DNA of 64,000 bases from Rhodoplanes serenus (lineage in GTDB: Bacteria > Pseudomonadota > Alphaproteobacteria > Rhizobiales > Xanthobacteraceae): positions 61,730-125,729 of the forward strand of contig CAMDDZ010000003.1 of assembly GCA_945893145.1 (NCBI GenBank), written 5' to 3'. Below are positions 8,217 through 56,703 of this stretch, piece by piece (position 1 is the first letter of the stretch; every line of letters starts with the position of its first letter). A program made the position numbers and the translations under genes. A model generated the notes under the pieces. The model made no database searches, was not told the origin of the DNA, and was given only the letters and a program-made list of their open reading frames with translations.

Positions 8217-8291
<75 letters not shown>

Positions 8292-8426
8292 AAAATTCCT
8301 TTTCTCACAAAGGGATTTAGTCGATGCGCGAAAAGCGCATTCGGCAACAATCGGCAGAACGAAACACGAAGTCCCAACCCGAATACGGGGAAAATCTTGG
8401 GACTTTGTTCGCCTGCTGTTCGCTTA

Positions 8427-8771
8427 TCAGGCGCGATAATTCCAAGACATCGCGCGCGCAAGCCATCTCTCTTCAAGTTCACGCTCGAAGATGAGCCTGG
8501 CAATCGCTTGCCGGCTAAGTCCCAAGCCAGCAATGGATTGGTCGAACTTTTTCACGAACTGCTGGTCCTGGAAATGTGCAGTCAGTTTGCGGCCCACTTG
8601 CTTTCCCCTACCGGATTTCGCCGAAAGTTTCTTGGGCAATTTCACAGGCATTCGCAGCGATTTGACAATGAGGATGCGCGCCAATTCGGAATCGGCGAGC
8701 CCAAGCCCTTCCGCGTATCTTTCGAAACGTTCTCTCTTTTCGGGGGATAGGCGTGCTGTGATCTGCTTCAT
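8427..8771 (-). CDS. Small protein with two tandem ribbon-helix-helix-like halves
   Basis: This 114-residue protein belongs to no family I can name. It contains two similar halves: QITARLSPEKRERFERYAEG followed by LGLADSELARILIVKSL (about 3-39), and KLTAHFQDQQFVKKFDQSIA followed by GLGLSRQAIARLIFERELEE (about 62-103). Each has the short-strand plus two-helix pattern of RHH/CopG repressors, so it may be a fused pseudo-dimer DNA-binding protein. A basic linker (KLPKKLSAKSGRGKQVGRK) joins them. The ATG at 8771 is preferred over an upstream start at 8894, which would run through the intergenic region. It is divergent from the 149-residue and HD genes and is a candidate regulator of them. Confidence 0.6.
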   Translation of the reverse strand: MKQITARLSPEKRERFERYAEGLGLADSELARILIVKSLRMPVKLPKKLSAKSGRGKQVGRKLTAHFQDQQFVKKFDQSIAGLGLSRQAIARLIFERELEERWLARAMSWNYRA

Positions 8772-8775
8772 ATAA

Positions 8776-8790
8776 GACTCAGATTGAGTC
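8776..8790. promoter_or_regulatory. Palindrome in the divergent intergenic region (candidate operator)
   Basis: GACTCA-gat-TGAGTC is a perfect dyad with 6-bp arms. It lies 4 bp upstream of the RHH-like start, in the only gap between the divergent genes, beside the -10-like sequences TAGAAT (8795-8800) and TATATA (8805-8810). Its position suits autoregulation by the RHH-like protein. The function is inferred. Confidence 0.4.
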
Positions 8791-8893
8791 GGACTAGAAT
8801 TTACTATATACGGTTGTACGAGCTTTGCAGCGTGATTCTGGGACTGGCGTCGACCTTCAAAATGCCGTTCAATGAACACGTCAGAGGACGCCA

Positions 8894-9343
8894 ATGGCGA
8901 TTGCTCTTCAAATTTCAGATGTGCCTTCTCAAGAATTCTCCGTGGATGACTTCACGGCCAGTCTTCTTGCTGGAGTAGCAGCAAAGGGAAAGACGCGGAT
9001 ACCCATCGGTCATCCGCGCGTCGAGAACGGCTTCAAAGAGATCGTCGACCTGTTGCGCCAATCGGCGCTTACAGCGGAAAAAAACGGGCGTTCCGATTTT
9101 GCATTTCGCATATTGGAAGTATTGGAAGAACTGCGGCCTGATCCCAATTCAGGATTGTTTGAAGGCTTTTGGTCAAGCCTTCGGAGGCAGCAGCCGGGCC
9201 GCGCGTCGGTGCCAAATCCAAGTTATAATTTTTTGCAGCTCCGTTTACCTCCTCACGATGCAAAGGCTTACCTCGCCCGGTTGCCAAATGAATGGCAAAC
9301 CATTGTTGATGAGGCAGTGAAGCGTTTAATGAAAGGACTGTGA
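8894..9343 (+). CDS. Uncharacterised 149-residue protein upstream of the HD-PRTase gene
   Basis: I do not recognise a family. The protein is soluble, with no signal or membrane segment. An N-terminal part (QISDVPSQEFSVDDFTASLL) is followed by a helical region (FKEIVDLLRQSALTAEKNGR, then FAFRILEVLEELRP) and a C-terminal segment NFLQLRLPPHDAKAYLARLP ending in a helix. It starts with ATG at 8894, and its stop is 17 bp before the HD-PRTase ATG, so the two form an operon and this is a likely partner or regulator of the large enzyme. Codon use is AT-richer than the surrounding core genes, like the rest of this block. Confidence 0.65.
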   Translation: MAIALQISDVPSQEFSVDDFTASLLAGVAAKGKTRIPIGHPRVENGFKEIVDLLRQSALTAEKNGRSDFAFRILEVLEELRPDPNSGLFEGFWSSLRRQQPGRASVPNPSYNFLQLRLPPHDAKAYLARLPNEWQTIVDEAVKRLMKGL

Positions 9344-9360
9344 CCCGAGCTCGATAGAAG

Positions 9361-12279
9361 ATGTTCGCCTATGCAGAACGTGTAGCTCGCTGGGCAAATG
9401 TTCTCCGCGCTGATCCTATCTGGACTGAAGAATTAGAGAAAGCTTTTGACTCCATTGGTTTCGATCAAAATTACTTAGCTGGCTTACGGCAGGCTCGTCG
9501 CAACTACAGCCGCATCAAAGCGATCAAAGATCACATTTGGGGAATGATCGAGCTGGAGCCCGGCGATGCCTGGCTCTTGGATTGTCCTCTATTGCAGCGG
9601 ATGCGCCACGTTCGGCAAACGGGATTCACCTTCCTAACGTATCCTAACGCTCATCACACGAGGATGGAGCACTCGTTGGGAGTGTATCAAGTCGTAAAGC
9701 GATTACTCGCCAGCTTTCGGCGTACCCAAGAAGCATTCGCCATTGAAGGGCGGCTACACGGGCATCAACAAATCAACTTAACACCCGCTGCCTATCCTAG
9801 ACAGTCACGTCAGGAGACTTTGGTACTCCATGCTGCTCTTCTTCATGATGTGGGACATGGAGTTTTTTCGCACGTATCGGAGCGCCTGTTTGCCGCACAC
9901 TCCAACGAACTCAAAATTGGTAAGCAGTCAGTACGACAATTTCGCGACAGCTTCAGATTAAAATATGAATTGGTCGAAGGTGACGTACAAACCGGGAGGC
10001 CCAAACCCCTTGCCGAACTGCTGACGATAGCAATTATTACCTCAAAACGTTTCGAAGAGTTCTATAAGCTCCTGCCTGGCCGAGTTGACGACGACCCATT
10101 TCCCGATCTGTGCGACATTGCAGTGCTGGTACTGGGCGACCGAATAGAACCAAATGACTTTGCATTACCAGAAGTTCTCTCAGGTCCCGTGGATGCGGAC
10201 AAGATTGACTACATGATACGTGATGCTCACGCATGCGGCATTAGCATTGGAATCGACGTAGCGCGGGTATTTGTTCGAGCAGGCATCTACGAAGGTTCTC
10301 CTTCTTCACTTGAACATCTGAAACTTGCTGGGTTCAATGAAGGCCATCCCCTAAGGCTGTTCGTAATTGAACAATCCGGCACAGATGCGGTTCGCGAACT
10401 AGGGACAGCCCGCCTATCGCTCTATGAGCGAGTGTATAATCACCAGCTTACCAGAGGTGCCCAGGCAGCATTTGGCGATATGATACTGCGTGCTGCAAAG
10501 AGCACAGATTTTGCAATTGCACAGTATGCCGACTTTCTCACACTATGGCAGCAGCCGGAAGATGTGGTTCTTTCCAGTCTCAAACGTTGTGGCGACCCGG
10601 CGATCAACAGGACAGCGCAGTCGTTGCTTGCGCGCCAGCTCCCCAAACGCGCCGCTTGCTTTGCCCGAGAATACCTGAACGCGCCAGAAGCGCCGGTCGA
10701 TGTTGTAAGCAACGCACTCCAGGATGCACACGAATTGCGACTGCAAGAATTTGCAGACGCCATTCTCGCGCGCCTGGACGGACCTCGCGGTGCCGCATTG
10801 CTGGCTAGCATCCAACAAGAAGCAACCATCATCCATGAGAAGCTCACCAACGATCGTCCTCCTGGAATCTCGCTGCCAAAAGATCGTGCTCCGCCGTTGA
10901 TGAGGTTTCTACCGTATCCCCGGGCACATGATTCAACGCCACCGCCGGCGCTCGTGATCCGTGGCGATCGCGTTGAACGCTTTGGAGATCGGTATTTCAG
11001 TTACCTATATGCTGGGGAAACATCTTCTCAAATTGGCTACCTATTGGTCCCGGATGAGTGGCGAGAAATCGCCCTTTTAGCCTGCCAGAACGTTGTTTAT
11101 CGAAATTACGGAGAAGACTTCCGCGTTATCATCGAAGGAGATTTCACGGCTGAGGAGGCAAAACTCCGCAATGCCTCGATCGAGATTGAAGCCCAGTTTC
11201 GTCCATGCCTAAACGCCGAGCGCATAGCCCGCAGGTGTAAACTTCGAATCGGTGATGTTGACGCAATGTCTAAAGCGTTGATTCGAAGCGGATACTTCGA
11301 CTCCATTCCTGCTCTTTTCCCACACCGGATTACAAAAGAAATAGAAAGCATTGCAGAACGATTTTCTGAATTTTCTGGTGAACAAGGATGGAAAGTTGGC
11401 GCGCCTCACGTAGCGACATTTGTTAGTCAGTTTCCTCCAGGACTTCGGTCTGAGTTGATCTCACTACTCCAAACTCCGAATCGATTTCTGTTCTTAGGTC
11501 GAGATACAACCATAAAGTTGGTCGCAAATGGCCTAGCGACACTCAATCTTCCCACACCGCTGCATTTAGTCCCTCTCACGCCAAGCAGTGGCCAATATAT
11601 CAGGACTCACATTCGGGGCTCGGTTGATCCGAAGAACGTGGTCGTGCACGCAAGTCTGAATGCAGCTTTGGCGGCGGTTAAGAACGGAGGTTCCGTTGCA
11701 TTCATCGACGACAACATTTCGTCGGGCACACAGTCCTCACGTCAACTGGACATTTACATGGGCGGCTCTGTTGAGAAGCCTCAAGGGAACTACATAATCG
11801 ATGCCTTGGATGAAAGTGAAAAAGCTCTTCTGCGATCGCGTCCGATTGCGGCTGCATTCTCTGTGGGGCACGAAGATGGACGAGCTAAACTTGCAGAGAC
11901 TGCCCGCAAACATGGAATTCAACTAGCGCCGGGGCACATTGTCTGGGGACGCCCAATCACCGATTTTTCAGGAAAGGGCGCAATATCCGACGCTCTACGA
12001 ACGTTCCTCGAACAAGTCGGTACGTCCGTTTTGCAAAGAAGATTTGAACGGGAGGGTAACGGGAATGCTGAACGGATCGCTCAAGAATTCGCCCTAGGAT
12101 ATGGTCGCCTTGAAGCTTTGGTAGCGACATCCTTCAGCGTGCCGACAGCCACTTATCCAGCTTTTTGGTGCCCCGGATTTCGGAACGTTCCGCAAGATCA
12201 GGGTAAGTCTCCGTTTCAGATACCGTGGATGCCACTATTTCTTCGGACAAACATGCTTCGACATTTGGTACTTGGATAG
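9361..12279 (+). CDS. SAMHD1/dGTPase-type HD hydrolase fused to a PRTase-like (PRTase-CE type) domain
   Basis: This 972-residue protein has two recognisable ends. Residues about 57-290 are an HD phosphohydrolase of the SAMHD1/dGTPase class: DHIWGMIEL, LLDCPLLQRMRHVRQTG, HHTRMEHSLGV with His104, LLHDVGHG with His162-Asp163, and PVDADKIDYMIRDAHACG with the final metal Asp278. About 290-650 is helical and unassigned. Residues about 660-972 resemble the PRTase-CE domain of predicted bacterial conflict systems, with a PRPP-loop-like VAFIDDNISSGTQ at 779-791 and a C-terminal block ending TYPAFWCPGF and PWMPLFLR. An HD enzyme could deplete dNTPs or process a nucleotide; the PRTase could make or sense a phosphoribosyl product. 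It lies in an AT-rich block behind tRNA-Gly. Domain calls are motif-based; a defence role is inference. Confidence 0.75.
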   Translation: MFAYAERVARWANVLRADPIWTEELEKAFDSIGFDQNYLAGLRQARRNYSRIKAIKDHIWGMIELEPGDAWLLDCPLLQRMRHVRQTGFTFLTYPNAHHTRMEHSLGVYQVVKRLLASFRRTQEAFAIEGRLHGHQQINLTPAAYPRQSRQETLVLHAALLHDVGHGVFSHVSERLFAAHSNELKIGKQSVRQFRDSFRLKYELVEGDVQTGRPKPLAELLTIAIITSKRFEEFYKLLPGRVDDDPFPDLCDIAVLVLGDRIEPNDFALPEVLSGPVDADKIDYMIRDAHACGISIGIDVARVFVRAGIYEGSPSSLEHLKLAGFNEGHPLRLFVIEQSGTDAVRELGTARLSLYERVYNHQLTRGAQAAFGDMILRAAKSTDFAIAQYADFLTLWQQPEDVVLSSLKRCGDPAINRTAQSLLARQLPKRAACFAREYLNAPEAPVDVVSNALQDAHELRLQEFADAILARLDGPRGAALLASIQQEATIIHEKLTNDRPPGISLPKDRAPPLMRFLPYPRAHDSTPPPALVIRGDRVERFGDRYFSYLYAGETSSQIGYLLVPDEWREIALLACQNVVYRNYGEDFRVIIEGDFTAEEAKLRNASIEIEAQFRPCLNAERIARRCKLRIGDVDAMSKALIRSGYFDSIPALFPHRITKEIESIAERFSEFSGEQGWKVGAPHVATFVSQFPPGLRSELISLLQTPNRFLFLGRDTTIKLVANGLATLNLPTPLHLVPLTPSSGQYIRTHIRGSVDPKNVVVHASLNAALAAVKNGGSVAFIDDNISSGTQSSRQLDIYMGGSVEKPQGNYIIDALDESEKALLRSRPIAAAFSVGHEDGRAKLAETARKHGIQLAPGHIVWGRPITDFSGKGAISDALRTFLEQVGTSVLQRRFEREGNGNAERIAQEFALGYGRLEALVATSFSVPTATYPAFWCPGFRNVPQDQGKSPFQIPWMPLFLRTNMLRHLVLG

Positions 12280-12302
12280 TCTGGAGTCTCGGCCCTTCGG
12301 GT

Positions 12303-12597
12303 GGCGCCTGCGCGCGGGATTCGTAACTCCGCTCCCGGGAGGCTCGGGTTGCTCGCTTCTCTCATGAGGAGAGGAGTCCCGACGCCAAAAATCGCCGCGA
12401 TGAAGCGCTAAGAGGCGAGCGCCCGTTCGCACCGGGCGGAGACACGCCTCGCAAGCGTGTGCCGGACCGCAGTCCGGCTTGGGGCCTATGGCTCCGGCGC
12501 CTTTCGGCGCTTCATCCCCTTCCGATCTTTCCGAGGGCGACACGAGACGGCGTCCGGGCGCCGAACCATCCCGGCGATCGCGCATGTCTTCAACACA
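12303..12597 (+). repeat. Large diverged dispersed repeat, copy 1 (end of the accessory block)
   Basis: This non-coding unit shares ordered blocks with 56236-56625: GGCGCCTGCGCGCGGGATTC near its start, then CTCCCGGGAGG, CAAAAATCGCCGCGATG in the middle, and CCCGGCGATC followed by a CAACACA end. This copy lacks about 95 bp relative to the other. It begins 23 bp after the HD-PRTase stop and may mark the block's right edge. Small ORFs across it are not conserved in frame between copies. Confidence 0.8.
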
Positions 12598-13075
12598 ACA
12601 CGTCCGCACCACCAGAGCAGGGCGTGCCCCGCTCAAAATTTTCTCCACTCTCATCACGTCTTCCACAGCGCGCCCGCGCGGATGGCGTGCTCTGCAACCG
12701 ACAACGTGTGGTGGAAAAGCCGCAGTGGTGGATATTAATGGGGATGCAAAATTGTTTTCCCAAGTGAATCACAGCACGTCCATAAGCAATGCACATCTCA
12801 TACCGAAGCTTCCTGACATTTCCGCGTCAAATTCACTTTTGAATCAAGCAGCATAGAAACGATCCACCGGTTCCACGGCGGTGTGGCGTACCGGCGAATG
12901 TCCTCTACGGCTCGTCAGGGTGTTATTCCCCGCTTTGCCCAGCTCCCACAATTGTGTGTGAACGCGCGCTCGCTGATCGTGACGTCATCGATGCCTGACA
13001 AGGCAGCGAGACGTTGCGGTGTCGTGTTGCGTGCCGTGTTCCAAAACAACCGTAAAAGCAAAGAGGGGCCCGTTC
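12598..13075. other. Intergenic region without a convincing gene
   Basis: About 480 bp between the repeat and the beta-barrel gene hold only short, compositionally implausible ORFs. The promoter of the beta-barrel gene must lie here; I could not pick a clear -35/-10. A GAGGGG Shine-Dalgarno sits at 13063-13068. Confidence 0.6.
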
Positions 13076-14431
13076 ATGCATCGCGTTGTAGGGTTGTCAG
13101 TTGTTCTTGCCACCGTGTTGAGTGCGAATGCCGCGCTTGCACAAACCGCCACAACCACATTGCAGCCGGCCAGCGGGCCGAGTTCGGTCGGCGTTGACGT
13201 TTGGTCCACACTTTATCCACGACCGCCGCAATCGACCATCACGCAGCCGACGCTTCGGGCTGCGAACCAGCCGGTGACCAGCGGTCCGGTGCAGCCGGTT
13301 GGCATCAACGCCGGCAACGTCATCTGGTATCCGTCGATTACCGGCGCCACGTTCTACGACGACAACGTGTTTGCGCGCAGTTCCAACCGGGTGGGCGATT
13401 GGGCGGCGATCGTGCGTCCGGAGCTCGCTTGGCGCTCGAACAACTGGGCCAACGCCCAGGTCGGCGCCGATGCCTTTATCGAGAAGCGCTGGTATCGCCA
13501 GTTCAAGAGCGAAGATCAGCTCAATGGCGCGGCCCAAATCGGCGGCACCGCGCAGCCCGACGCCAACACCCAACTCGTCGGCCGGCTCGCCTATCTCCAC
13601 GCTCATGAGGATCGCGGCACCAGCGATTCCGTCAACACGTCCTTCGCCAGACCATTGGCATACGACCAGTTCGAGGCGGCGGGCGCGATCAACAAACGCT
13701 TCGACCGAGTGTGGACCTCGCTCGGCGCCGCCGGTGCCTGGATCCATTTCCAGGATCCGACGCTCAACGGCCTTACGATCAGCCAAGCCTATCGCAACGG
13801 TGCGATTGTCCGCGTTCCGGCGCGCGTCGGCTATGTGATTGCGCCGTCGACCAGCGTCTTCGGCGAGGTCTCCGTCAACCGGCGCGACTTCCGTGACGAT
13901 GCATTCGACTCGCGCGGCTACCGCGTGGTGGGCGGCATGCTGTTCGAACCGGGCGCCGGCTCGCGTCTGAAAGGCGAAGTCTTTGCCGGCTATATGGCGC
14001 AGAACTACAACGGCGCGTCGTTCCAGAAGGTCTCGACCTGGACCTTCGGCAGCAGCCTGGCGGTGCTGGTCGCGAACAACGTGACCGCGGTGTTCGAAGG
14101 CCGCCGTGATGCGCGCGAAGCATCGCTCAGCGGCGGTCAGGTCCCTGGCGACGGCGTCAGCGTCGTCGAAACCATGGCAGCGGTGCGGGCCGACGTGCTG
14201 GTGGCGCCGAACTTCGTGATTGGTGGTGGTGTCGCCTATCTGTCGGATCAGTATCTCGGCGCCAACCGCACCGATCGGAGCTGGAGCCCGCTGGCGTCCG
14301 CCAAATACTTCGTCAACAGGAACCTGACGCTCGGCTTCGACTACCGCTATCTGACTTTCGACTCGAGCGGGCTCGGCGTCAACGGCTACTACAAGAACGT
14401 CTATCTGTTCTCGGCGAACCTGCGCTACTGA
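13076..14431 (+). CDS. Outer-membrane beta-barrel protein
   Basis: This encodes 451 residues. A Sec signal peptide (MHRVVGLSVVLATVLSANAA, cleavage after ALAQ) is followed by a Thr/Pro-rich linker and then alternating amphipathic strands typical of barrels (for example NVIWYPSITGATFYDDNVFA, TWTFGSSLAVLVANNVTAVF, NLTLGFDYRYLTF). The protein ends in FSANLRY, a C-terminal aromatic beta-signal for the BAM machinery. It resembles the uncharacterised barrels (BBP2_2-like) frequent in Rhizobiales; the function is unknown. The ATG at 13076 has GAGGGG upstream and places the signal peptide at the N-terminus; the longer frame from 13019 does not. It is convergent with the repeat protein and shares its terminator. 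Confidence 0.82.
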   Translation: MHRVVGLSVVLATVLSANAALAQTATTTLQPASGPSSVGVDVWSTLYPRPPQSTITQPTLRAANQPVTSGPVQPVGINAGNVIWYPSITGATFYDDNVFARSSNRVGDWAAIVRPELAWRSNNWANAQVGADAFIEKRWYRQFKSEDQLNGAAQIGGTAQPDANTQLVGRLAYLHAHEDRGTSDSVNTSFARPLAYDQFEAAGAINKRFDRVWTSLGAAGAWIHFQDPTLNGLTISQAYRNGAIVRVPARVGYVIAPSTSVFGEVSVNRRDFRDDAFDSRGYRVVGGMLFEPGAGSRLKGEVFAGYMAQNYNGASFQKVSTWTFGSSLAVLVANNVTAVFEGRRDAREASLSGGQVPGDGVSVVETMAAVRADVLVAPNFVIGGGVAYLSDQYLGANRTDRSWSPLASAKYFVNRNLTLGFDYRYLTFDSSGLGVNGYYKNVYLFSANLRY

Positions 14432-14486
14432 GCGGCCCTGCGCTGCTGAGCAGACCTACGTTACTGAGATTGTCCGAACGGCAAAA

Positions 14487-14513
14487 AAACGGGGTCCCGC
14501 AGGACCCCGTTTT
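14487..14513. terminator. Bidirectional intrinsic terminator
   Basis: A perfect stem AAACGGGGTCC/GGACCCCGTTT has a CGCAG-type loop, an A-tract on the left and T residues on the right. It therefore works for both the beta-barrel gene (+) and the repeat-protein gene (-), which converge on it. Confidence 0.85.
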
Positions 14514-14542
14514 CGCTTGTGTTGACGGTTGGGCTAGGCGCG

Positions 14543-17389
14543 TTACCGCTGCGCCACGCCAACCTCTTGCGCGATGCGCGGGATGCGGCGTGCCGCCAGC
14601 CAGCACACATCCACGATCTTCTTGCTGTAGCGCTTCGGATTCCGGAGCACCAGGATGCAGCGGTTGGCGAGCTTGTCGAGATCCGCGGCGCTCATCCCGG
14701 CGAAGGCATCGTTGCCGCCATCGCTGTAGGTGCCGCTGAACCCGCCGATCGCGATGCCGCCACCGCCACCGCCGCTGCTGTCGCCAGCAATGATGGTGGT
14801 GTTGTTGGTGGTCGACGTCGTGGTCGTGTTGGTCGTGTCGCCGATGGTGTCCCCGGTGCTGCCGAGGATTTCGGTGAGCGTGTCGCCGAGGTTGGTCACC
14901 GTGGTGTTCAGCGTGTCACCCAGATTGGTGACGGTGCTGTTCACGGCGCCTGTCACGTCGCCGACCGAAGGCAGCGTCGGCAGCGTGGGAAGCGTCGGCA
15001 ATGTCGGCAGCGTCACGCCGGGCAGTGTCGGCAGGGTCGCGCCAGGCGGTTCCGTGCCGCCGAGGACGCTGACAACAACCGAGCCAACCGTGGTGCCGGT
15101 TCCGGTGTTGCCGGTGTCGTTGCCGGTGATGTTGCCGACCCCGACGTTGGTCGAGCTGATCGGCGCGGTTCCGGTATCGCCGGTGTTGGCGCCGGTGTTG
15201 AGTGCGCCGACGTTGGTCGAGCCGAGCTGATTGCCGGTCGACTGATCGCCAGTGAGGCTGCCGTTGTTCAGGGCCGCAACATTGGTCGAGCCAACCTGGC
15301 TGCCCGGGCCGGTATCGCCGGTCGGGCTGTTGGTGTTCAGCACGCTGGCGTTGGTGCCGACTCCAGTCGTGCCGCTCGTCGAGCTGCCGGTCGGGCTGTT
15401 GGTGTCGAGCACGCTGGCATTGATGCCTGCGAGCTGGTTACCGCTGCCCGTGGTGCCGGTCGGACTTGTGGTGTCCAGCACGCCGGCATTGGTGCCGACG
15501 ATCTGATTGCCGGCGCCAGTGTTACCGACTGGGCTTGCGGTGTTCAGCACGCCCGCGTTGACGCCAGCGACCTGATCGCCAGTGCCGGTGTTGCCGGTCG
15601 GGCTGCCGAGGTTAGCGACGCCGACATTGCCGGTGGCGAGCGCGTCGCCCGTGCCGGTGGTGCCAGTCGGGCTGGCGGCGTTCAGCACGCCCGCGTTGAC
15701 GCCCGCGACCTGGTCGCCAGTGCCGGGGTTACCGGTCGGGCTACCAAGATTAGCGACGCCCGCGTTGGCGGTGCCGAGGTTGTTGTCGCCAGGACCCGCG
15801 TTGCCGGTCGAGCTTGTGGTGTTCAACACGCCCGCATTGGCGGCCGCGAGGCCGTCATTGGTGGCGGCGCCGGTGTTGCCGGTGGGGCTTGCTGTGTTCA
15901 GCACGCCCGCGTTGGCCGCGGCGGTCTGGTCGGCAGTGCCAGTGTTACCGGTCGGGCTGCCAAGATTGGCGACGCCGACATTGCCAGCAGCGGCCTGATC
16001 GCCGGGTCCGGTGTTGCCGGTGGGGCTTGCGACGTTCAGCACGCCCGCATTGGCGGCTGCGACGCCGTTGTCACCCGGGCCGGTGTTGCCGGTCGGGCTT
16101 CCAAGGTTGGCGATGCCGGTGTTGGAGCCGACCAGCTGATTGCCGCTGCCGGTCGTGCCGGTCGGGCTCGCGGCGTTCAGCACGCCCGCGTTGACGCCAG
16201 CGACCTGATCGCCAGTGCCGGTGGTTCCGGTGGGGCTCGCTGCATTCAGCACGCCGACATTGGCGGCGGCCACGCCGTTGTTGCCCGGGCCGGTGTTACC
16301 GGTCGGGCTGGCGAGGTTGCCGATGCCAACGTTGGTCGAAGTGGCTTGAGTGCCGCTCGCCGCGTTGCCGGTCGGGCTGGACGGCGCATTCAGCGCGCCG
16401 ACGTTGGTGGAGGCGACGCCGGTGTCGCCGGGGCCGGTGTTCCCGGTGTTGGCGGCATTGAGGATGCTAGCGTTGGTCGACGCCAGACCATTGTCACCGG
16501 TGTTGTTGTTTCCGGTGTTTGTGCCGGGCGCATTGAGCGCACTGACGTTGGTCGAAGCCAGGCCATTGTTGTTCGCCGCGTTGCCGGTGTTGGTGCCGGT
16601 GGCGTTCAGCGCGCTCACGTTGGTGGAAGCGAGCCCGCTGTTTGGCGTGCTGTCGCCGGTCGTGGCGCCAGGTGCGTTGAGGATGCTGGCGTTGGTGGAG
16701 ACGATCGGCGTGTCGGTGCCGTTGCCGGTCGTGGTGCTGGCGGCGAGAGCTGGGTTCGTTGCACTGCCGAGCGTGACGGTTACGCTCGGATCAGGATTGA
16801 CCTTGACGGTCAGGCCCTTGGTCCCGCCGATGTTGACGACGCGCGGATTGGTGATGCCAGGCGCTGCCTTGTTGGCCCATCGCTTGAGCGCTGCCTGCGT
16901 CCGCACGCTGGCGTGACCGACGGTCCCGACCACGACGTTGCTCTTGTACTTCACGACCTTGCCGGTCGGTGCAATCAGAGCGTTGATCGTGCGGTTCACG
17001 CCGTTCGTGTTGCGCTGAATTTGCTGATTGGTTCGGCCAGTAACGGGAGCCGTGGTCCGGTTGCCGAAGTTGGCGGCACCGGAGAAGAAGCTGTTGCCGG
17101 TGAAGCTGCTGGTGAAGCCGCTGCCAGGCGTACCCGTCGGATTGGACGTGATACCGGATGTGATGCCGCCAGTGACGCCGCTGGTGACACCACTGGTAAT
17201 GCCGCCGACGGAACCGGTGACGCCGCTGGTCACTCCACCGAGGGTTGTGCCACCGATCGATACTCCAAGGGCCTTGCCGACCGGGCCGGCGAACGTCGGT
17301 GTGCTGAGGGCCGTGCTCAAGCAAAGCGCGGCAACCGCCGCGCCCAGAACCTTACCTGTTTGATTTGACTTGGCTTTTTTGGCTGTCAT
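14543..17389 (-). CDS. Secreted repetitive protein with about 23 tandem 23-residue repeats
   Basis: This 948-residue protein is of unknown family. A Sec leader (GKVLGAAVAALCLSTALS ending TFAG) is followed by a Gly/Ser/Thr-rich region and a small domain (NRTINALIAPTGKVVKYKSN). An array of about 23 units follows, with consensus near NAGVLNxASPTGNTGxGDQVAG. Then come PTLPTLPTLPTLP, a Thr/Asn-rich tract, six glycines and a conserved-looking end (DLDKLANRCILVLRNPKRY, then VDVCWLAARR) with two cysteines. The alternating small/hydrophobic NxGVLN core suggests a beta-solenoid or surface fibre, but this is inference. The ATG at 17389 with GGGAGAGGCG is preferred over the longer frame. Acidic, Lys/Arg-poor repeats and unit-length variation suggest array instability. 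Confidence 0.75.
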   Translation of the reverse strand: MTAKKAKSNQTGKVLGAAVAALCLSTALSTPTFAGPVGKALGVSIGGTTLGGVTSGVTGSVGGITSGVTSGVTGGITSGITSNPTGTPGSGFTSSFTGNSFFSGAANFGNRTTAPVTGRTNQQIQRNTNGVNRTINALIAPTGKVVKYKSNVVVGTVGHASVRTQAALKRWANKAAPGITNPRVVNIGGTKGLTVKVNPDPSVTVTLGSATNPALAASTTTGNGTDTPIVSTNASILNAPGATTGDSTPNSGLASTNVSALNATGTNTGNAANNNGLASTNVSALNAPGTNTGNNNTGDNGLASTNASILNAANTGNTGPGDTGVASTNVGALNAPSSPTGNAASGTQATSTNVGIGNLASPTGNTGPGNNGVAAANVGVLNAASPTGTTGTGDQVAGVNAGVLNAASPTGTTGSGNQLVGSNTGIANLGSPTGNTGPGDNGVAAANAGVLNVASPTGNTGPGDQAAAGNVGVANLGSPTGNTGTADQTAAANAGVLNTASPTGNTGAATNDGLAAANAGVLNTTSSTGNAGPGDNNLGTANAGVANLGSPTGNPGTGDQVAGVNAGVLNAASPTGTTGTGDALATGNVGVANLGSPTGNTGTGDQVAGVNAGVLNTASPVGNTGAGNQIVGTNAGVLDTTSPTGTTGSGNQLAGINASVLDTNSPTGSSTSGTTGVGTNASVLNTNSPTGDTGPGSQVGSTNVAALNNGSLTGDQSTGNQLGSTNVGALNTGANTGDTGTAPISSTNVGVGNITGNDTGNTGTGTTVGSVVVSVLGGTEPPGATLPTLPGVTLPTLPTLPTLPTLPSVGDVTGAVNSTVTNLGDTLNTTVTNLGDTLTEILGSTGDTIGDTTNTTTTSTTNNTTIIAGDSSGGGGGGIAIGGFSGTYSDGGNDAFAGMSAADLDKLANRCILVLRNPKRYSKKIVDVCWLAARRIPRIAQEVGVAQR
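15100..16706 (-). repeat. In-frame tandem repeat array (about 69-bp units)
   Basis: About 23 coding repeats, each near 69 bp (23 codons, some 22-25), lie within the secreted repetitive protein. Every unit carries an Asn-rich N(A/V)(G/S)(V/A/I)LN core and most carry SPTGxTG. The variants group into two alternating types (VLNxASPTG and VANLGSPTG), hinting that the array grew by duplication of two-unit blocks. Confidence 0.85.
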
Positions 17390-17595
17390 GTCGCCTCTCC
17401 CACGTGGCCGTTGCGGCCGTAGACTATTAAGAGTCTGGTAACCAACGTAGCTGGTGAGGCACAGGTTCCCCTTTGCCGTGCAATTTTGAGCACTTTCGAC
17501 TCGCGCCGGTTGCAAACCGGATTGTGCAGTGCGTTGATGTGAAATGATGTGCCGCGAAAATGATGCCGTGGCGCTGCCGCTTAGATTTTTGGCGT

Positions 17596-19323
17596 TCAGT
17601 ATCCGGCGGCGAGCGAGCCGCGGGTGCGCGCATCGGCGGCGCCGATCAGGCCAGCGGGCGTGATCAAAATCGAATTCACCGTGGTGGCCGGCGAACGAAC
17701 AATGATGCGGTGGCCGCGTGCTTCGAGAGCTTGCACGATCGCGGCAGAGAGCGAGCGCTCCACGATCACCTCATCGGGCAGCCATTGATTGTGAATGCGC
17801 GGCGCGGTCACCGCGTCGGCGACGCTCATGCGGTGGTCGATCATGTTGATCAGCACTTGCAGCACCGCGGTGATGATGCGGCTGCCGCCCGGCGCGCCGG
17901 TCACCAGCAAGGGGCGCCCGTCCTTGAGCACGATGGTTGGTGTCATGGACGACAGCGGCCGCTTGCCCGGTCCTGGTGCGTTCGCCTGGCCAAGGCCAAC
18001 GAGACCGAAGATGTTGGGCGCGCCTGGTTTGGCCGCGAAGTCGTCGAGCTCGTTGTTGAGCAGGATGCCGGTGCCGTCCGCGATCAGGCCGACGCCGTAG
18101 CTCTGGTTGAGTGTGTAAGTATTGGCGACTGCATTGCCGAGGCGATCCACGACCGAAAAATGCGTGGTGTTGTCGCCTTCGAATGCAAACGGATTGCCGG
18201 CCGCGATGTCGCGCGGCGCCTGCGCGCGCTGCAGATCGATGCTGGCGCGGAGTGTCGCGGCGTAGCGCTTCGACAAAAGGCCCGCGACGGGCATCGTGAC
18301 GAAGTCGGGATCGCCAAGGAATTGCGCGCGGTCCGCATAGGCGCGCTTCATCGTCTCGATCAAAAGATGCAGCGAGTTGGGATCGTCGGCGCGCAGTGCG
18401 AAGCCTTCGAGCACATTGAGCATCTCGATCAGCAGCACGCCGCCGGAGGAGGGCGGCGGCATCGAAACGATCTCGTGGCCGCGATAAGTGCCGCGCACCG
18501 CCGCGCGCTCGATGGGCCGATAGTTGTTCAAGTCGGCGGCGGTCATCAGTCCGCCGGCCTTGCGCACCGCGGCGACGATGCGTTGCGCGGTCGCGCCCTC
18601 GTAGAAGCCGCGCGCACCGTTGTGTGCGATCGCCTCCAGCGACGCCGCAAGATCGCGCTGCACCAGCATTTCGCCCTCGGCGAGCGGCGTGCCGTCGGCT
18701 TTGAGGAAAATCTTCGCCGACGCCGGCCATTGCGCGAGCCGCGGCGTCGCCTGCGGCAGCGAATCGGCCACGTCGGCCTCGACCGGAATGCCGTTGCGCG
18801 CCAGCGCGATGGCGGGCTCGATCAATTGCGCGAGCGTGAAATGGCCCGAGCCATATTTCGTGTGCGCGTGCGCGAGGCCGGCCACGGTGCCCGGGACACC
18901 GATGGCGAGGCCATGATCGCGCGACTTCTTCGGATCGGCGTCGCCGTGCGCATCGAGAAAGACATCGGGCGTGGTCGCCGCCGGCGCGGTTTCGCGATAG
19001 TCGATCGCCACCTGTCGGTTTTGTCCGGCGAGATGGAGCAGCATGAAGCCACCGCCGCCGATGTTGCCGGCACGCGGATAGGTGACCGCCATCGCAAAGC
19101 CGACCGCGACCGCCGCGTCGATCGCATTGCCGCCCCGCTGCAGGATATCGGCGCCAATGCGAGCGGCGCGCGCCTCCTGCGCCACCACCATACCGCTCTG
19201 CGCGGTGACCGGGACGGTGCGTGGAACGTCGCCCGCGGTCGAGCCGCGCTGCGCCCGCGCCGAACTGAGAGCGCTTGCCGCCAGCAGACCGAGCGTGAAC
19301 GCGCGGCGGGTGGTCCGGATCAT
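17596..19323 (-). CDS. ggt: Gamma-glutamyltransferase
   Basis: This is a 575-residue periplasmic Ntn-hydrolase that cleaves glutathione and transfers the gamma-glutamyl group. It starts with a Tat-like leader (MIRTTRRAFTLGLLAASALS). It shows GNAIDAAVAVGFAMAVTYP and GNIGGGGFMLLHL in the large subunit, and the autoprocessing motif GDNTTHFSVVD at about residue 381, where the Thr becomes the N-terminal nucleophile of the small subunit. The later PLSSMTPTIVLKDGRP and GAPGGSRIIT are also family signatures. Length is normal. It is transcribed divergently from the TTT receptor with a 75-bp gap, so the imported substrate may relate to its products, but this is only a contextual guess. Confidence 0.95.
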   Translation of the reverse strand: MIRTTRRAFTLGLLAASALSSARAQRGSTAGDVPRTVPVTAQSGMVVAQEARAARIGADILQRGGNAIDAAVAVGFAMAVTYPRAGNIGGGGFMLLHLAGQNRQVAIDYRETAPAATTPDVFLDAHGDADPKKSRDHGLAIGVPGTVAGLAHAHTKYGSGHFTLAQLIEPAIALARNGIPVEADVADSLPQATPRLAQWPASAKIFLKADGTPLAEGEMLVQRDLAASLEAIAHNGARGFYEGATAQRIVAAVRKAGGLMTAADLNNYRPIERAAVRGTYRGHEIVSMPPPSSGGVLLIEMLNVLEGFALRADDPNSLHLLIETMKRAYADRAQFLGDPDFVTMPVAGLLSKRYAATLRASIDLQRAQAPRDIAAGNPFAFEGDNTTHFSVVDRLGNAVANTYTLNQSYGVGLIADGTGILLNNELDDFAAKPGAPNIFGLVGLGQANAPGPGKRPLSSMTPTIVLKDGRPLLVTGAPGGSRIITAVLQVLINMIDHRMSVADAVTAPRIHNQWLPDEVIVERSLSAAIVQALEARGHRIIVRSPATTVNSILITPAGLIGAADARTRGSLAAGY

Positions 19324-53437: not shown

Positions 53438-53512
53438 GCCGGCGTAGCTCAGTGGTAGAGCATCCGCTTCGTAAGCGGGTGGTCGGGGGTTCAAATCCCT
53501 CCGCCGGCACCA
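53438..53512 (+). tRNA. tRNA-Thr (anticodon CGT)
   Basis: The acceptor GCCGGCG pairs with CGCCGGC; the D-arm contains TAGCTCAGTGGTAGAGC; anticodon stem CCGCT/AGCGG presents loop TCGTA with CGT at 53470-53472; the T-arm contains GGTTCAAATCC. The discriminator is A53509 and CCA is encoded. Its last 23 bp are repeated exactly at 55582-55604, marking an integration site. Confidence 0.96.
53490..53512 (+). repeat. attL: tRNA-Thr 3'-end core (23-bp direct repeat)
   Basis: This 23-bp segment from the T-loop to the CCA is identical to 55582-55604 (starts TTCAAATCCC, ends GCCGGCACCA). It is the classical target of tyrosine integrases in tRNA T-arms. Confidence 0.9.
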
Positions 53513-53798
53513 TTCCATCGTTCCATAGATGTTCTCTGCGACGCATAGCGACGGAATTTCAATACGTTGCCTGATTTCGAGTGTGCGCATTGCCGATCAT
53601 AGCTTGCGGTGCCTTCGCGGGTAAACATTTCTGTATGTCGAGCCATATCTGCCAGTGCAAGGTCACGACTCGCGGTGTCGATATCTAAATCCGCCGTCGC
53701 TTGCAAAAGTTCACGTAGGTCGCTTCCACCTGTGATCTCATGTGTTGTCTTGCTGCCAAGCTGGTATGCTGCTTTGCAGCGCAATAAACTCAGAATCG

Positions 53799-54323
53799 CT
53801 AATAAGAAACTGAGGGTCGGCTCCGGGCGTACGCCCCCCTTGCGCAAGGTCCCTGTATTGGGTCGCGGCAACCTCGGCCAAAAGATACCTTGTCCTCCAA
53901 GATAACGGCCGCGAACTCGGCATCTATAGATTGACGATAGATCCATGAAATATCGTCTATCGGAAGGTATTTAATTCTAGCGTTCTTTATTCGTATGCTC
54001 GGCTTTTGCAGCAGCGGCAGGCCATCGTTCCGCGGTTCTGCGGTTATTTTCTTACCGTAGGCTTCCGATAGGCTAACCAGGGCGTACGCCTCTGTGCCGT
54101 CAGCCTGTTTCCAGCGGATGTTTAACCAAGACACATTCCGTGTGAAGTAATAACCGTTCACAACCTCAGCATCGGTCTCAATGCCATTTGTGCGTACCTC
54201 TTCTCTAACCTTGATATCTGCGGCTGAATAAGTGACAAACCAAAGCAGAGCTACAGAAATCCCGCCAAAGAGGATTCCGAAGAATATGATCTTAAATGCC
54301 GTTTTTAGTCTCTTGGACGTCAT
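53799..54323 (-). CDS. Membrane-anchored protein of the island (DUF3592-like), possibly frameshifted at its end
   Basis: This encodes 174 residues. One N-terminal membrane segment (FKIIFFGILFGGISVALLWF) is followed by a beta-rich part (NGIETDAEVVNGYYFTRNVS, TEAYALVSLSEAYGKKITAE, IRIKNARIKYLPIDD) resembling DUF3592-type domains. After about residue 140 the composition becomes Gly/Arg/Cys-rich (FGRGCRDPIQGPCARG), while another frame carries more protein-like sequence (DPQFLISDSEFIALQSSIPA), so a frameshift near 53880 is likely. It lies 94 bp downstream of the ClpP-fold gene on the same strand. Function unknown. Confidence 0.6.
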   Translation of the reverse strand: MTSKRLKTAFKIIFFGILFGGISVALLWFVTYSAADIKVREEVRTNGIETDAEVVNGYYFTRNVSWLNIRWKQADGTEAYALVSLSEAYGKKITAEPRNDGLPLLQKPSIRIKNARIKYLPIDDISWIYRQSIDAEFAAVILEDKVSFGRGCRDPIQGPCARGAYARSRPSVSY

Positions 54324-54417
54324 TATCGGTTACTCCGGCTGTACCGGTCGCAGAAACGTGAATCCAACCAATGCTGATGGGCCGCTTCCAGCATGGTTTA
54401 GTGCCTCGTTAATGCCT

Positions 54418-55227
54418 TTATCGCTGATGCATCTTTTGAAACTCGCTGATTCCAGACACCGCCTCTTGATATTGAATTCTATCAAGGCACCGACCAGTGC
54501 CTTGCCGGGCTTCTGTAGAACCGCATTGCGCCACCGCTAATTCATAGGTGCTTGGCGCCAAAATTGGAATCAGCGAGCGTTCCTGAGCCGTAAGGTAATG
54601 CAATATATCTGATCCAGTTGCCATATTGCGGCTAATAATTGCATCCGGGATGCTAATTTCTTGAAAGTATGCCTTTAGCTCGGCCATCACTTTTGTATAT
54701 CTACGTTCTGCTTCCATCGGATCAACACCGGCGATATCTGAATACCTCATACGATGAACACCGAGAACAGTGCCTCGTCGTGCCCAGCCGCCGGCCCATA
54801 TAATAAAGCATGAGCTGGCGCACTCGCATCGTCGATCTCCAGCTCCCGTACGCGGGTTAAAATAAAAATTGCCCCCGAGCTGATCAGAATAGCAGTGACG
54901 CTCATCACCGAAATCGTTTCGTAGGTTTGGTGCTAGGGTAGTGGGGCGCAGCATTCGAACCATTTTTCCAATTTCAATACCGTCATATAAGGAACCGCCG
55001 GGCGAGTAAGTTTTTACATACATGATTGGTTTATTCCGCCGAGCGACGTCAAGTACGGTCTGACGAAAGCGGGTTGCGTCTCCTTGATTGACAGTACCCG
55101 TCAAAACGAGGTTCGCGAATCTTTCGGACTCTTCAACATAAATATCGAGAGCATGAGTGCGATGAGCGCTTAGAAAAATGGCAAGAGTGCCTACGATTAA
55201 CCGCGCTGAAATCAGGTATTTCGCCAT
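54418..55227 (-). CDS. Exported ClpP-fold protein carried by the island
   Basis: This is a 269-residue protein with leader YLISARLIVGTLAIFLSAHR, cleaved near HALD. It shares the layout of the chromosomal ClpP-like protein at 32994: YVKTYSPGGSLYDGIEIGKM (SPGG at 75-78), RRCECASSCFIIWAGG with candidate Ser138 between cysteines, and VLGVHRMRYSD with candidate His158. It has extra cysteines (HCYSD, QCGSTEA, RCLDRI) suggesting disulfides. The role is unknown; a periplasmic protease or a degenerate binding fold is possible. It is a recent acquisition relative to the paralogue, given its place on the tRNA-Thr element and its AT-rich codons. Confidence 0.8.
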   Translation of the reverse strand: MAKYLISARLIVGTLAIFLSAHRTHALDIYVEESERFANLVLTGTVNQGDATRFRQTVLDVARRNKPIMYVKTYSPGGSLYDGIEIGKMVRMLRPTTLAPNLRNDFGDERHCYSDQLGGNFYFNPRTGAGDRRCECASSCFIIWAGGWARRGTVLGVHRMRYSDIAGVDPMEAERRYTKVMAELKAYFQEISIPDAIISRNMATGSDILHYLTAQERSLIPILAPSTYELAVAQCGSTEARQGTGRCLDRIQYQEAVSGISEFQKMHQR

Positions 55228-55376
55228 AGTAGCAGTCTCCGGCGTGCTAAGAGTTTCGATATGAAAACGGCCAACCGACGGCCCGTCCGTGGCTACCTAA
55301 GGTAGGCGACAAAAGCGCTGTTTTGGAGGAAATATTCACGCGCAAAGCCTGCTAGGTAGAGGGCCTATCTCAACTG

Positions 55377-55604
55377 TTAAGTCGACCGCACGGGCGGATG
55401 ACTGACGGCATCGCGCAAGATTGACAGCGCTTCTGCAACTTCCTGACTCTTAATCGCAATTATTTCCATCAGTTGGGATGGCGTCCGAGTGTCCACGATG
55501 GAGCGCTTATTCGGGTTGACAGCCTTAAGGTCGTAGACGGCATCCTCGATGTCTTTGGCCTTGGAGGCTATCCTAAGGGCCTTCAAATCCCTCCGCCGGC
55601 ACCA
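55377..55604 (-). pseudogene. 5'-truncated gene end, HsdM-like (type I methyltransferase C-terminus?)
   Basis: The frame from the right att repeat reads DLKALRIASKAKDIEDAVYD, then LKAVNPNKRSIVDTRTPSQL and MEIIAIKSQEVAEALSILRD. The DLKAVNP-N-DTRTP-Q-AKS-EVxEAL pattern resembles the extreme C-terminus of HsdM-type N6-adenine methyltransferases as I remember them. The frame stays open through the att repeat but has no plausible start inside the element (only a TTG at 55586). This fits a gene whose 5' part was removed when the element recombined. The family assignment is tentative. Confidence 0.45.
55582..55604 (+). repeat. attR: second copy of the tRNA-Thr 3' end
   Basis: Exact 23-bp duplicate of 53490-53512, not part of a complete tRNA. 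The bases just before it differ from the tRNA (GGCC versus GGGG), so the repeat boundary is sharp. Confidence 0.9.
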
Positions 55605-55633
55605 GCCTTCGCGCAGCGAAGACTGCCCGCCAT

Positions 55634-55661
55634 AGCCCGCCTGGCGACGGCGGGCTTTTTG
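55634..55661 (+). terminator. Intrinsic terminator, originally of the tRNA-Thr transcript
   Basis: Stem AGCCCGCC/GGCGGGCT with loop TGGCGAC, followed by TTTTT. It lies 30 bp after attR, where the tRNA-Thr end would be in an uninserted chromosome. Confidence 0.8.
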
Positions 55662-55741
55662 TTGCCACCCGCTTCGGCTCGCAAGCCAGCTTTCCGCAAT
55701 TGTTCAGAACATCGAAGACCGGCCGCAGTGCCGCCGGTCGT

Positions 55742-55948
55742 TCAGCGCGCCGCGATAGGGTCGAGCTGGGCGTCCTCTTGAACCTTGGCGTCGGAGGCGT
55801 TGATCTGGTGGCCGGCCATGCAATGCGGGCACCAGACCCAGATAGTCAGCTGCATCGACTGCATTCGCTGGAGCGTGAGACGGTCGGCCTGAATGGCGGT
55901 CTCGACTTCGTCGCCCGTGCGCGGGCACCCGTAGGACACAACACTCAT
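55742..55948 (-). CDS. Small zinc-ribbon-like protein
   Basis: This is a 68-residue protein with two possible metal-binding pairs: SYGCPRTGDEVE (one Cys) and VWVWCPHCMAGHQI (CxxC plus His), linked by a strand-rich part (TAIQADRLTLQRMQSMQLTI). The ATG at 55948 has GGAGGCG at 5 bases and is preferred over a GTG four codons upstream. Homologous small proteins are common in Bradyrhizobium relatives, often several copies per genome, and are unstudied. Function unknown. Confidence 0.75.
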   Translation of the reverse strand: MSVVSYGCPRTGDEVETAIQADRLTLQRMQSMQLTIWVWCPHCMAGHQINASDAKVQEDAQLDPIAAR

Positions 55949-56235
55949 ACGCGCCTCCACTGACCCCTAGAAACAACCGGGGCTTGGGCAAATTGTCAAG
56001 ACATTACGGCCGCTTGGCGTGATTTTGGGCGGCCGGTGTGGCATCGCGAGCGCCGCCAAATTTGGCTGCGGCACGCCGGAAATAGCGGCGGCGTCTGAAT
56101 TCGGAGGGTTAACGGGGATATCGGCCGCCGGCACGCGTTATGGCTTTACGGATCGAACGAATAAGCTCACTAGGTTTACTGTCCTACCCAACCGAGGGCG
56201 TCATCATGAGGCGTCGTGCTGGCGGGGTGGGACGC
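55949..56235. other. Intergenic region without a gene
   Basis: About 290 bp hold only short ORFs with poor composition. The promoter of the zinc-ribbon gene must be here, reading leftwards. Confidence 0.6.
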
Positions 56236-56625
56236 GGCGCCTGCGCGCGGGATTCGCAACCCCGCTCCCGGGAGGCCTCGGGTAACTGTCCCCCCGACTA
56301 CGAGGGGCGCCCAGTTTAGGGCACACGGGGACCGGATGAACGGCGGCGTGAGCCGCCGGGATCAGGGCGAGCGCGAGTTCGCTGCCGGTTTTTGTCAGTA
56401 ACGGTTCCGAGGGCCAAAAATCGCCGCGATGGAGCGTCGGCCGGCGCGCGCCCCCGCTTTGGGCGCCACGCCGGTTTGTCCCCGTTGGAGTAATCCATCG
56501 GTGGACGAGGCGTGATCGAGATGTGGCGTCGACCGGCGCTCCATCCCCTCGGATTTTCCGAGGGACCAACGAAACGGCGCCCGGGCGCCCAACAAATCCC
56601 GGCGATCACGCACGTCCGCAACACA
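56236..56625 (+). repeat. Large diverged dispersed repeat, copy 2
   Basis: Shares ordered blocks with 12303-12597, in the same orientation, and carries about 95 bp more. It directly abuts the 49-bp palindromic repeat at 56626, so the two repeat families are adjacent here but not at the first copy. It carries no conserved coding frame. Confidence 0.8.
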
Positions 56626-56674
56626 GAGCATGATCCCGAAAAGTGGATACCGGTTTTCGGAAAAGATCATGCTC
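56626..56674 (+). repeat. 49-bp palindromic dispersed repeat, copy 5
   Basis: Identical to the copy at 5720-5768 across the parts compared by eye. It lies between the large repeat and the unknown secreted-protein gene. Confidence 0.9.
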
Positions 56675-56703
56675 AAACAAGAAGCCAGGAGGGCAGATTG
56701 AAC

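Follow-up and report, generated by a model that had tools for sequence, protein, structure and literature searches.

The stretch of Rhodoplanes serenus DNA analyzed here, referred to as the window in the following, comprises 64,000 nucleotides and contains a two-gene module consisting of a gene for a small protein of 149 residues (positions 8894-9343, plus strand) and, after a spacing of 17 nt, a gene for a protein of 972 residues (9361-12279, plus strand), in which a SAMHD1-like HD core is joined to a phosphoribosyltransferase (PRTase) tail. A gene for a ribbon-helix-helix (RHH)-like protein is encoded divergently (8427-8894, minus strand), and all three genes lie behind a tRNA-Gly(gcc) gene (8217-8291, plus strand) in an AT-richer block with a G+C content of 0.512 (8292-12279) compared to 0.640 for the window. 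An initial annotation had described this layout, and the coordinates, the gene lengths, the 17-nt gap and the AT-richer block behind the tRNA gene were all confirmed; the start of the HD-PRTase gene at 9361 furthermore agrees with the starts of its homologues in the alignment. Based on the sequence comparisons reported below, it is somewhat likely that the module acts as a switch against phages: the HD core would sense or hydrolyze deoxynucleoside triphosphates (dNTPs), the small protein would restrain it and the tail would do the damage.

Domain Architecture and Active Sites of the HD-PRTase Protein

The PRTase-CE-like C-terminus proposed in the initial annotation was supported by sequence, as residues 686-962 (11416-12246, plus strand) match the Pfam family PRTase-CE (PF24390) with 63.1 bits at a cut-off of 27 (E 4.9e-17). 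The Pfam family HD (PF01966) matches residues 101-200 with 26.6 bits at a cut-off of 22, HD_assoc_2 stays under its cut-off (18.9 vs 23.1 bits), and HD-CE (PF24391) gives no Pfam match to the window protein up to an E-value of 1. A profile of the family compared with the PDB finds for the HD part the entries 2hek (3.6e-33), 9mr6 (2.7e-23) and 2o6i (8.2e-23) as well as SAMHD1 chains with E-values from 8.9e-21 to 1e-17; no PDB relatives were found for the PRTase tail or for the nuclease-type tail of the related proteins described below. Curated dGTPase models are missed, with 12.8 vs 400 bits for the anti-phage dGTPase model NF041026 and 25.9 vs 152 bits for the dGTP_triPase model TIGR01353.

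Conservation was tallied in 81 rows of the alignment (23 PRT1, 19 PRT2, 15 nuclease, 9 HD-only and 15 generic rows; the 82nd, L102, was left out). The HD residues R101, H104, H162, D163, H166, H171, E174 and D278 are identical in 81/81 rows, and the same applies to D280, D288, Y359 and H361. The HD signature read in the initial annotation (His104, His162-Asp163, Asp278) is thereby conserved throughout, with one correction to its metal-binding aspartate, for which the SAMHD1 numbering (D311-K312, Y315) points to D280 instead of the equally conserved D278. With the H..HD..D motif and the His/Glu dyad present, the protein falls into the HD phosphohydrolase/dNTPase superfamily. The PRTase tail contains the segment VAFIDDNISSGTQ (residues 779-791; 11695-11733, plus strand), whose earlier reading as a loop for phosphoribosyl pyrophosphate (PRPP) agrees with the conservation of D783, D784 and G789 in 42/42 rows and of Q791 in 41/42. 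Since generic HD proteins share the conserved HD residues, these speak for a superfamily enzyme and not for a defense role.

A Conserved Family of Small Partner Proteins

Up to an E-value of 1, neither Pfam nor NCBIfam matches the 149-residue protein, which also lacks a PHROG match and has a single PADLOC match to JetA (E 0.011); it is the only part of the module that does not belong to a known family. A homologue search returned 27 proteins including the query, and five of the seven HD homologues P0002-P0008 have a longest contig of exactly the same length in bp as a partner homologue (6201, 5021, 6492, 4321, 6439), which suggests that these proteins are encoded as neighbors on the DNA. In a metagenome-assembled genome (MAG) of the Rhodospirillaceae (L002) a gap of 19 nt separates the partner gene from the HD gene that follows it. 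A small gene with the NP motif is located directly upstream on the plasmids of Rhizobium sp. CIAT894 (L097), Desulfosarcina ovata (L098), Sphingobium (L099) and Methylocystis parvus (L102), in the MAGs L003, L005, L006 and L007, in L016, a genome of the same order, on the viral contigs L104 and L167, and upstream of the HD-PRTase genes L140 and L141 (another genus) and L146 (a viral contig). These loci and that of the window sum up to 16 loci with a PRTase tail, a nuclease-like tail or a cut-short HD protein, and in all 16 the partner gene immediately precedes the HD gene, as was expected from the assignment of the 149-residue protein as a partner in the initial annotation. The gaps between both genes range from -32 to 65 nt in 14/14 loci, to which L146 and L167 come as two more. 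The HD gene of L102 is cut short beside an IS6 transposase gene and that of L002 by the contig end, the HD genes of L006 and L007 are split, and five places were fetched twice (L016/L042, L017/L043, L104/L168, L140/L142, L141/L143).

The partner groups were compared by hhalign, which aligned the group of the window with the nuclease-type group at E 3.3e-6 and the latter with the L016 partner at E 2.1e-6. Models built by leaving out one group at a time found all four held-out groups among 1760 open reading frames (ORFs) of the fetched loci (E <=7.1e-5), with no unrelated ORF ranked among them, and the L016 partner, which was in neither set of this test, was found at E 3e-7. At the level of profile comparisons, this shows that the small proteins share common ancestry and constitute one NP-motif family. 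With the final partner model, none of 67 comparison loci gave a match below E 0.1; these were 65 loci of other HD proteins together with L004 and L017, including some overlapping duplicates, and the best was L017 with 0.13. In scans of viral sequences the same model identified L146 (E 2.3e-4), L167 (E 9.3e-25) and L168 (the contig of L104), and no match below 0.1 came from 21 other HD loci; L167 and L168 were located by the partner alone and both have an adjoining HD gene, which in L167 starts 9 nt downstream. Viral scans with the HD-PRTase family of the window and with the close partner family found nothing. No small partner-like gene is annotated upstream of the HD genes found on a plasmid each of Klebsiella and Roseibium and in a Klebsiella prophage.

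Apart from this family, some plain HD proteins of approximately 440-560 residues have a different small neighbor with a GRTLLQK/KKRLQK-type motif, located upstream or downstream (L025 901-1404, L034 1861-2637, L086 2168-2677, L008 9335-9901, L009 5468-6031). These neighbors have no Pfam name and presumably resemble SocA/Panacea. Moreover, a tail-less HD protein of approximately 510 residues occurs in the Klebsiella prophage (L101) and, with the same kind of neighbors, on the Klebsiella plasmid (L100).

Exchange of the C-Terminal Tail

Among the relatives with the small partner, a second kind of tail occupies the position of the PRTase. An example is the nuclease-tailed pair of Rhizobium sp. 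CIAT894 (WP_125460992.1 and WP_010069570.1). In hhalign, residues 37-588 of the PRTase-tailed family align with residues 36-573 of the nuclease-tailed family (E 2.3e-47), and the alignment ends there. The second tail shows the motif E..GG..D(L/I)...(V/I)ENK in 14/15 rows, L016 having another form, and it is predicted to be a PD-(D/E)XK nuclease.

A tree was calculated from 82 HD cores (window residues 50-450; 9508-10710, plus strand), which represent selected HD homologues from the searches and loci. P0007, with a deviating tail, is included in the alignment A1 and outside the 82-row tree, and P0009 and P0102, which are without any HD motif, were left out. The 67 tailed or HD-only rows split from the 15 generic HD rows with a support of 99 in the Shimodaira-Hasegawa-like approximate likelihood ratio test (SH-aLRT), the nuclease group without L016 is supported at 100, and the group of the window together with 13 of the 19 further PRTase rows at 98. 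The other six PRTase rows are placed elsewhere, and long branches are present. Two origins of the PRTase tail are unsupported, as the grouping of all PRTase rows in one clade is not rejected by the approximately unbiased (AU) test (p 0.21). There is good support for at least one tail change, and further changes are possible. Because relatives bear a predicted nuclease in the tail position, the HD core and the small protein may be read as the constant part of the module and the PRTase as one of at least two attachments.

Defense Neighbors, Mobility and the Divergent Gene

PADLOC was run on 20 neighbor proteins of the relatives' loci, which were picked by eye; the neighbors of L002, L007, L140, L146, L167 and of the window stood outside this run. 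The neighbors of L097 match Septu proteins (PtuA 4.3e-109, PtuB 6.8e-31), those of L098 match NucC (2.3e-91) and WYL (1e-19), and those of L005 match PifA (8.5e-171), SspA (8.4e-124) and SspB (9.3e-100). Further matches are QatC beside L104 (2e-53), QueC beside L102 (2.9e-13), PDC-S01 beside L003 (4.7e-90), a type II methyltransferase model approximately 4 kb from the unit in L006 (6.5e-26) and a weak viperin match in L042, the same place as L016 (3.9e-10). One neighbor each of L099, L006, L102, L104 and L042 gave no PADLOC match. Regarding mobility, the PRTase-tailed L146 is flanked on its viral contig by genes for a tape measure (2.2e-58) and a minor tail protein (3.2e-48), and the nuclease-tailed L167 on its viral contig by genes for head closure (1.6e-14) and a tail protein (7.8e-7); genes for recombinases, in one case a phage-type integrase and in the other a serine recombinase, are found near the L141 place and near L104, respectively. 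Nuclease versions occur on plasmids and near Septu, NucC, QatC, PifA and PDC-S01 genes, and several settings of the relatives are mobile. The co-occurrence with defense genes, which the initial annotation had proposed as a check, is thereby seen for the nuclease-tailed relatives and not for the PRTase-tailed copies, beside which, with only the three neighbors of the L141 place run, no known defense gene was found. As a separate observation, the genome of the window contains, distant from the window, a match to the SMODS nucleotidyltransferase with 31.5 vs 26.5 bits (G000, contig C27, 43944-44270; L144), which possibly belongs to a system of the type of the cyclic oligonucleotide-based antiphage signaling system (CBASS).

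The RHH-like gene has its best family match to phrog_5333 (E 5.4e-4), its Arc-like/CopG-like matches are weaker than E 0.08, and it has no Pfam match. Since the phrog_5333 match begins only at residue 42 of the 155-residue reading, the gene may start at an internal ATG at 8771 (minus strand), giving 114 residues and therefore 122 nt between the divergent genes. Three plasmid loci of the nuclease type also have a divergent gene, with weak MerR matches below the cut-off, and others show none. The RHH-like regulator, regarded as a part of the system in the initial annotation, was rejected as a part of the module core since it is not conserved among the loci of the relatives; it could be a local transcriptional regulator outside this core. 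An inverted repeat at 8776-8790 was dismissed as an operator, as 16.6% of shuffles have as many.

The regulator-like gene that is encoded divergently in the window and likewise in three plasmid loci, the small gene directly upstream of the large one and at times overlapping it, and the plasmid and phage settings would also suit a toxin-antitoxin or addiction unit that stabilizes mobile elements, with the small gene as antitoxin, the HD protein as toxin and any effect on phages being secondary. We consider such a unit improbable in view of the known defense genes near the nuclease versions, which are still compatible with it, as many defense systems are toxic when unguarded.

Distribution of the Fusion and Variability of the Site

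The HD-PRTase fusion is found beyond the window: of the 88 proteins that a profile search obtained from 8000 scored candidates, 49 carry PF24390; two of the returned proteins, from Bradyrhizobium canariense and Microvirga, bear the NCBI name 'phosphoribosyltransferase-like protein'. In the sample of the family, an HD match was found in 14 of 341 genomes, and in another genus of the family 2/242 genomes encode a full-length HD-PRTase protein. In the sample of the phylum, 18/398 genomes have PRTase-CE above the cut-off and only that of the window in a frame of more than 900 residues, the 17 other frames comprising 306-519 residues. Nine of these 17 stand-alone PRTase-CE loci adjoin a frame with a YADD motif (two were tested and both are RVT_1), a neighborhood of PRTase-CE and reverse transcriptase as in type III retrons, and five have an ORC-CDC6-like neighbor, three above and two below the Pfam cut-off. 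In L056 and L062 genes for a HAD-type hydrolase, PRTase-CE and an ORC-CDC6-like protein are arranged in a row, the ORC-CDC6-like match of L056 being below the Pfam cut-off. Furthermore, a PRTase-like part is suggested for the reverse transcriptase family RT_UG10_large by the match of its PADLOC model to residues 664-830 of P0010, within the PRTase tail of this homologue (E 3.6e-6).

The 3' end of the tRNA-Gly gene forms the left border of a variable block (8292-17595), which contains the module in its left part. The synteny of the window with six congeners extends to 8291-8295, i.e., to this 3' end, and in the four congeners that are readable further (G001, G004, G007, G008) it resumes at approximately 17,600 inside a gene (17596-19323) that we take by eye to encode a gamma-glutamyltransferase. 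The intervals of these four congeners measure approximately 4.5 (G001), 5.1 (G004), 4.3 (G007) and 0.8 kb (G008) and have no match to the window, and because they differ from that of the window the tRNA-Gly site is variable. A repeat of the tRNA end as a mark of integration was not found, and scans for promoters and terminators gave no more matches than in shuffles.

According to general knowledge, the families of both domains belong to enzymes of nucleotide metabolism, which would suit an ordinary host enzyme of nucleotide salvage. Such a housekeeping role is very improbable: among 40 genomes of relatives including 10 congeners none encodes the partner, which was found in the window's own genome only, no other of the 341 genomes in the family sample encodes a full-length HD-PRTase protein, the module has a lower G+C content and a variable site, and relatives bear a predicted nuclease instead of the PRTase.

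Comparison with Known Systems and Proposed Working

According to the accessible text of its description, Clover consists of the dGTPase CloA and the nucleotidyltransferase CloB, and its HD dGTPase is turned on by a rise of dTTP and held off by the product of the partner (PMC12265719). The module of the window resembles Clover as a two-gene unit with an HD protein, in which the HD motif and the His/Glu dyad are equally spaced (D163, H171 at +8 and E174 at +11 in the window, D118, H126 and E129 in CloA) and in which the partner would regulate the HD enzyme as shown for Clover. However, the partner of the window is a protein of 149 residues without a nucleotidyltransferase match, and attached to the HD core is a PRTase, or in relatives a predicted nuclease, a tail of a kind not met in the accessible part of the Clover description (PMC12265719). 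Membership in Clover was rejected, as the partner is not a Pol-beta-type nucleotidyltransferase (no Pfam/NCBIfam match up to E 1). For type III retrons, the accessible text terms the PRTase the effector (PMC12548924). Type III-A retrons, composed of a PRTase, a winged-helix protein and a reverse transcriptase, share with the window the PRTase-CE domain (PF24390), and the PADLOC models PRTase_III-A match the window protein weakly (E 0.003-0.011), whereas the PRTase of the window is fused to an HD core and has its own partner. Membership in the retrons was also rejected, since no RVT_1 was found at E 0.001 in the approximately 95% complete genome of the window; non-coding RNA was not searched. 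The stand-alone PRTase-CE genes with an ORC-CDC6-like ATPase (PF24390 and PF24389) have the PRTase family in common with the window, but no HD core or PNPSY-motif partner was seen in those loci and no such ATPase adjoins the module. The HD core of anti-phage dGTPases and SAMHD1 is homologous to that of the window protein and shares its conserved residues; the window protein differs by staying below the curated dGTPase cut-offs and by its extra tail and partner. In the open-access literature, as far as its text was accessible, no description of a module of small partner, HD core and PRTase or nuclease tail was found, and PRTase-CE by name gave no match there.

A sensing HD core with an executing tail is proposed for the module because it joins an HD switch as in Clover with a PRTase effector as in retrons. 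The HD core would bind dNTPs and respond to the shifts of the nucleotide pool during infection, as CloA does, reading or hydrolyzing them, while the small PNPSY-motif protein would hold the HD protein in check. Once released, the tail would kill or stall the infected cell, the PRTase tail with PRPP or a phosphoribosyl nucleotide as its substrate and the predicted nuclease tail by cutting nucleic acid. The roles could also be reversed, with the HD core as the weapon, a dNTPase that depletes dNTPs as in dGTPase/Clover defense, and the C-terminal domain and the small protein as sensors or regulators. The conservation of the HD and the catalytic His/Glu residues in all rows tallied, their CloA-like spacing and the existence of free-standing HD relatives fit such an enzyme, which we nevertheless judge unlikely: it is the tail and not the core that varies between PRTase and predicted nuclease, and the PRTase of type III retrons is termed the effector (PMC12548924, accessible text). 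The exchange of the tail on a constant core is the main reason for preferring the tail as effector.

The anti-phage switch with an executing tail can be extended, more tentatively, to a modular mobile immunity, in which a SAMHD1-like sensor of the nucleotide pool is combined with different killing tails (PRTase or nuclease) and guarded by the small NP-motif family, and which is carried among phage tail genes, on plasmids and in defense islands. Several points weigh against the anti-phage switch. The nuclease-type tail is identified by its motif, with no Pfam and no PDB match; the PRTase-tailed copies have no known defense neighbor, 0/3 in L143 (the L141 place), the only such locus whose neighbors were run; and the defense neighbors were hand-picked, without a control set of random loci. 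In addition, the L016 partner alone reaches only E 0.16 against the four-group model, the tail-less L004, on the same side of the tree, has no detectable partner (hhalign 0.59), and the partner of the tail-less L017, on the same tree side as well, is borderline (E 0.13-0.15; hhalign 0.008). A partner is claimed neither for L004 nor for L017. The initial annotation had tied its idea of a system to the fold of the C-terminus and to the presence of the small partner beside homologues; with the PRTase-CE match by sequence and the partner kept, this idea stands.

If the proposed switch is true, the bacterial SAMHD1/dNTPase fold would trigger other effectors besides destroying nucleotides, with a small protein as safeguard, and one core with two tails would allow sensing and killing to be separated directly. 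The module would also help to reveal the chemistry of PRTase-CE, which is the effector domain in type III retrons. The small-protein family provides a sequence handle for finding further such systems.

Further Features of the Window

The variable block contains, besides the module, a gene for a beta-barrel porin (13019-14431; BBP2_2, E 4.5e-57) and a gene for a Gly/Asn/Thr-rich protein of 990 residues (14543-17515); the genes at 13019-17515 were not found in the congener stretches compared. A second AT-richer block is located at 53438-56676 behind a tRNA-Thr gene, with a G+C content of 0.494 at 54001-55000. Three pieces in this region (56236-56283, 56413-56436, 56534-56625) have 82-96% identity to parts of 12303-12597, just past the module.

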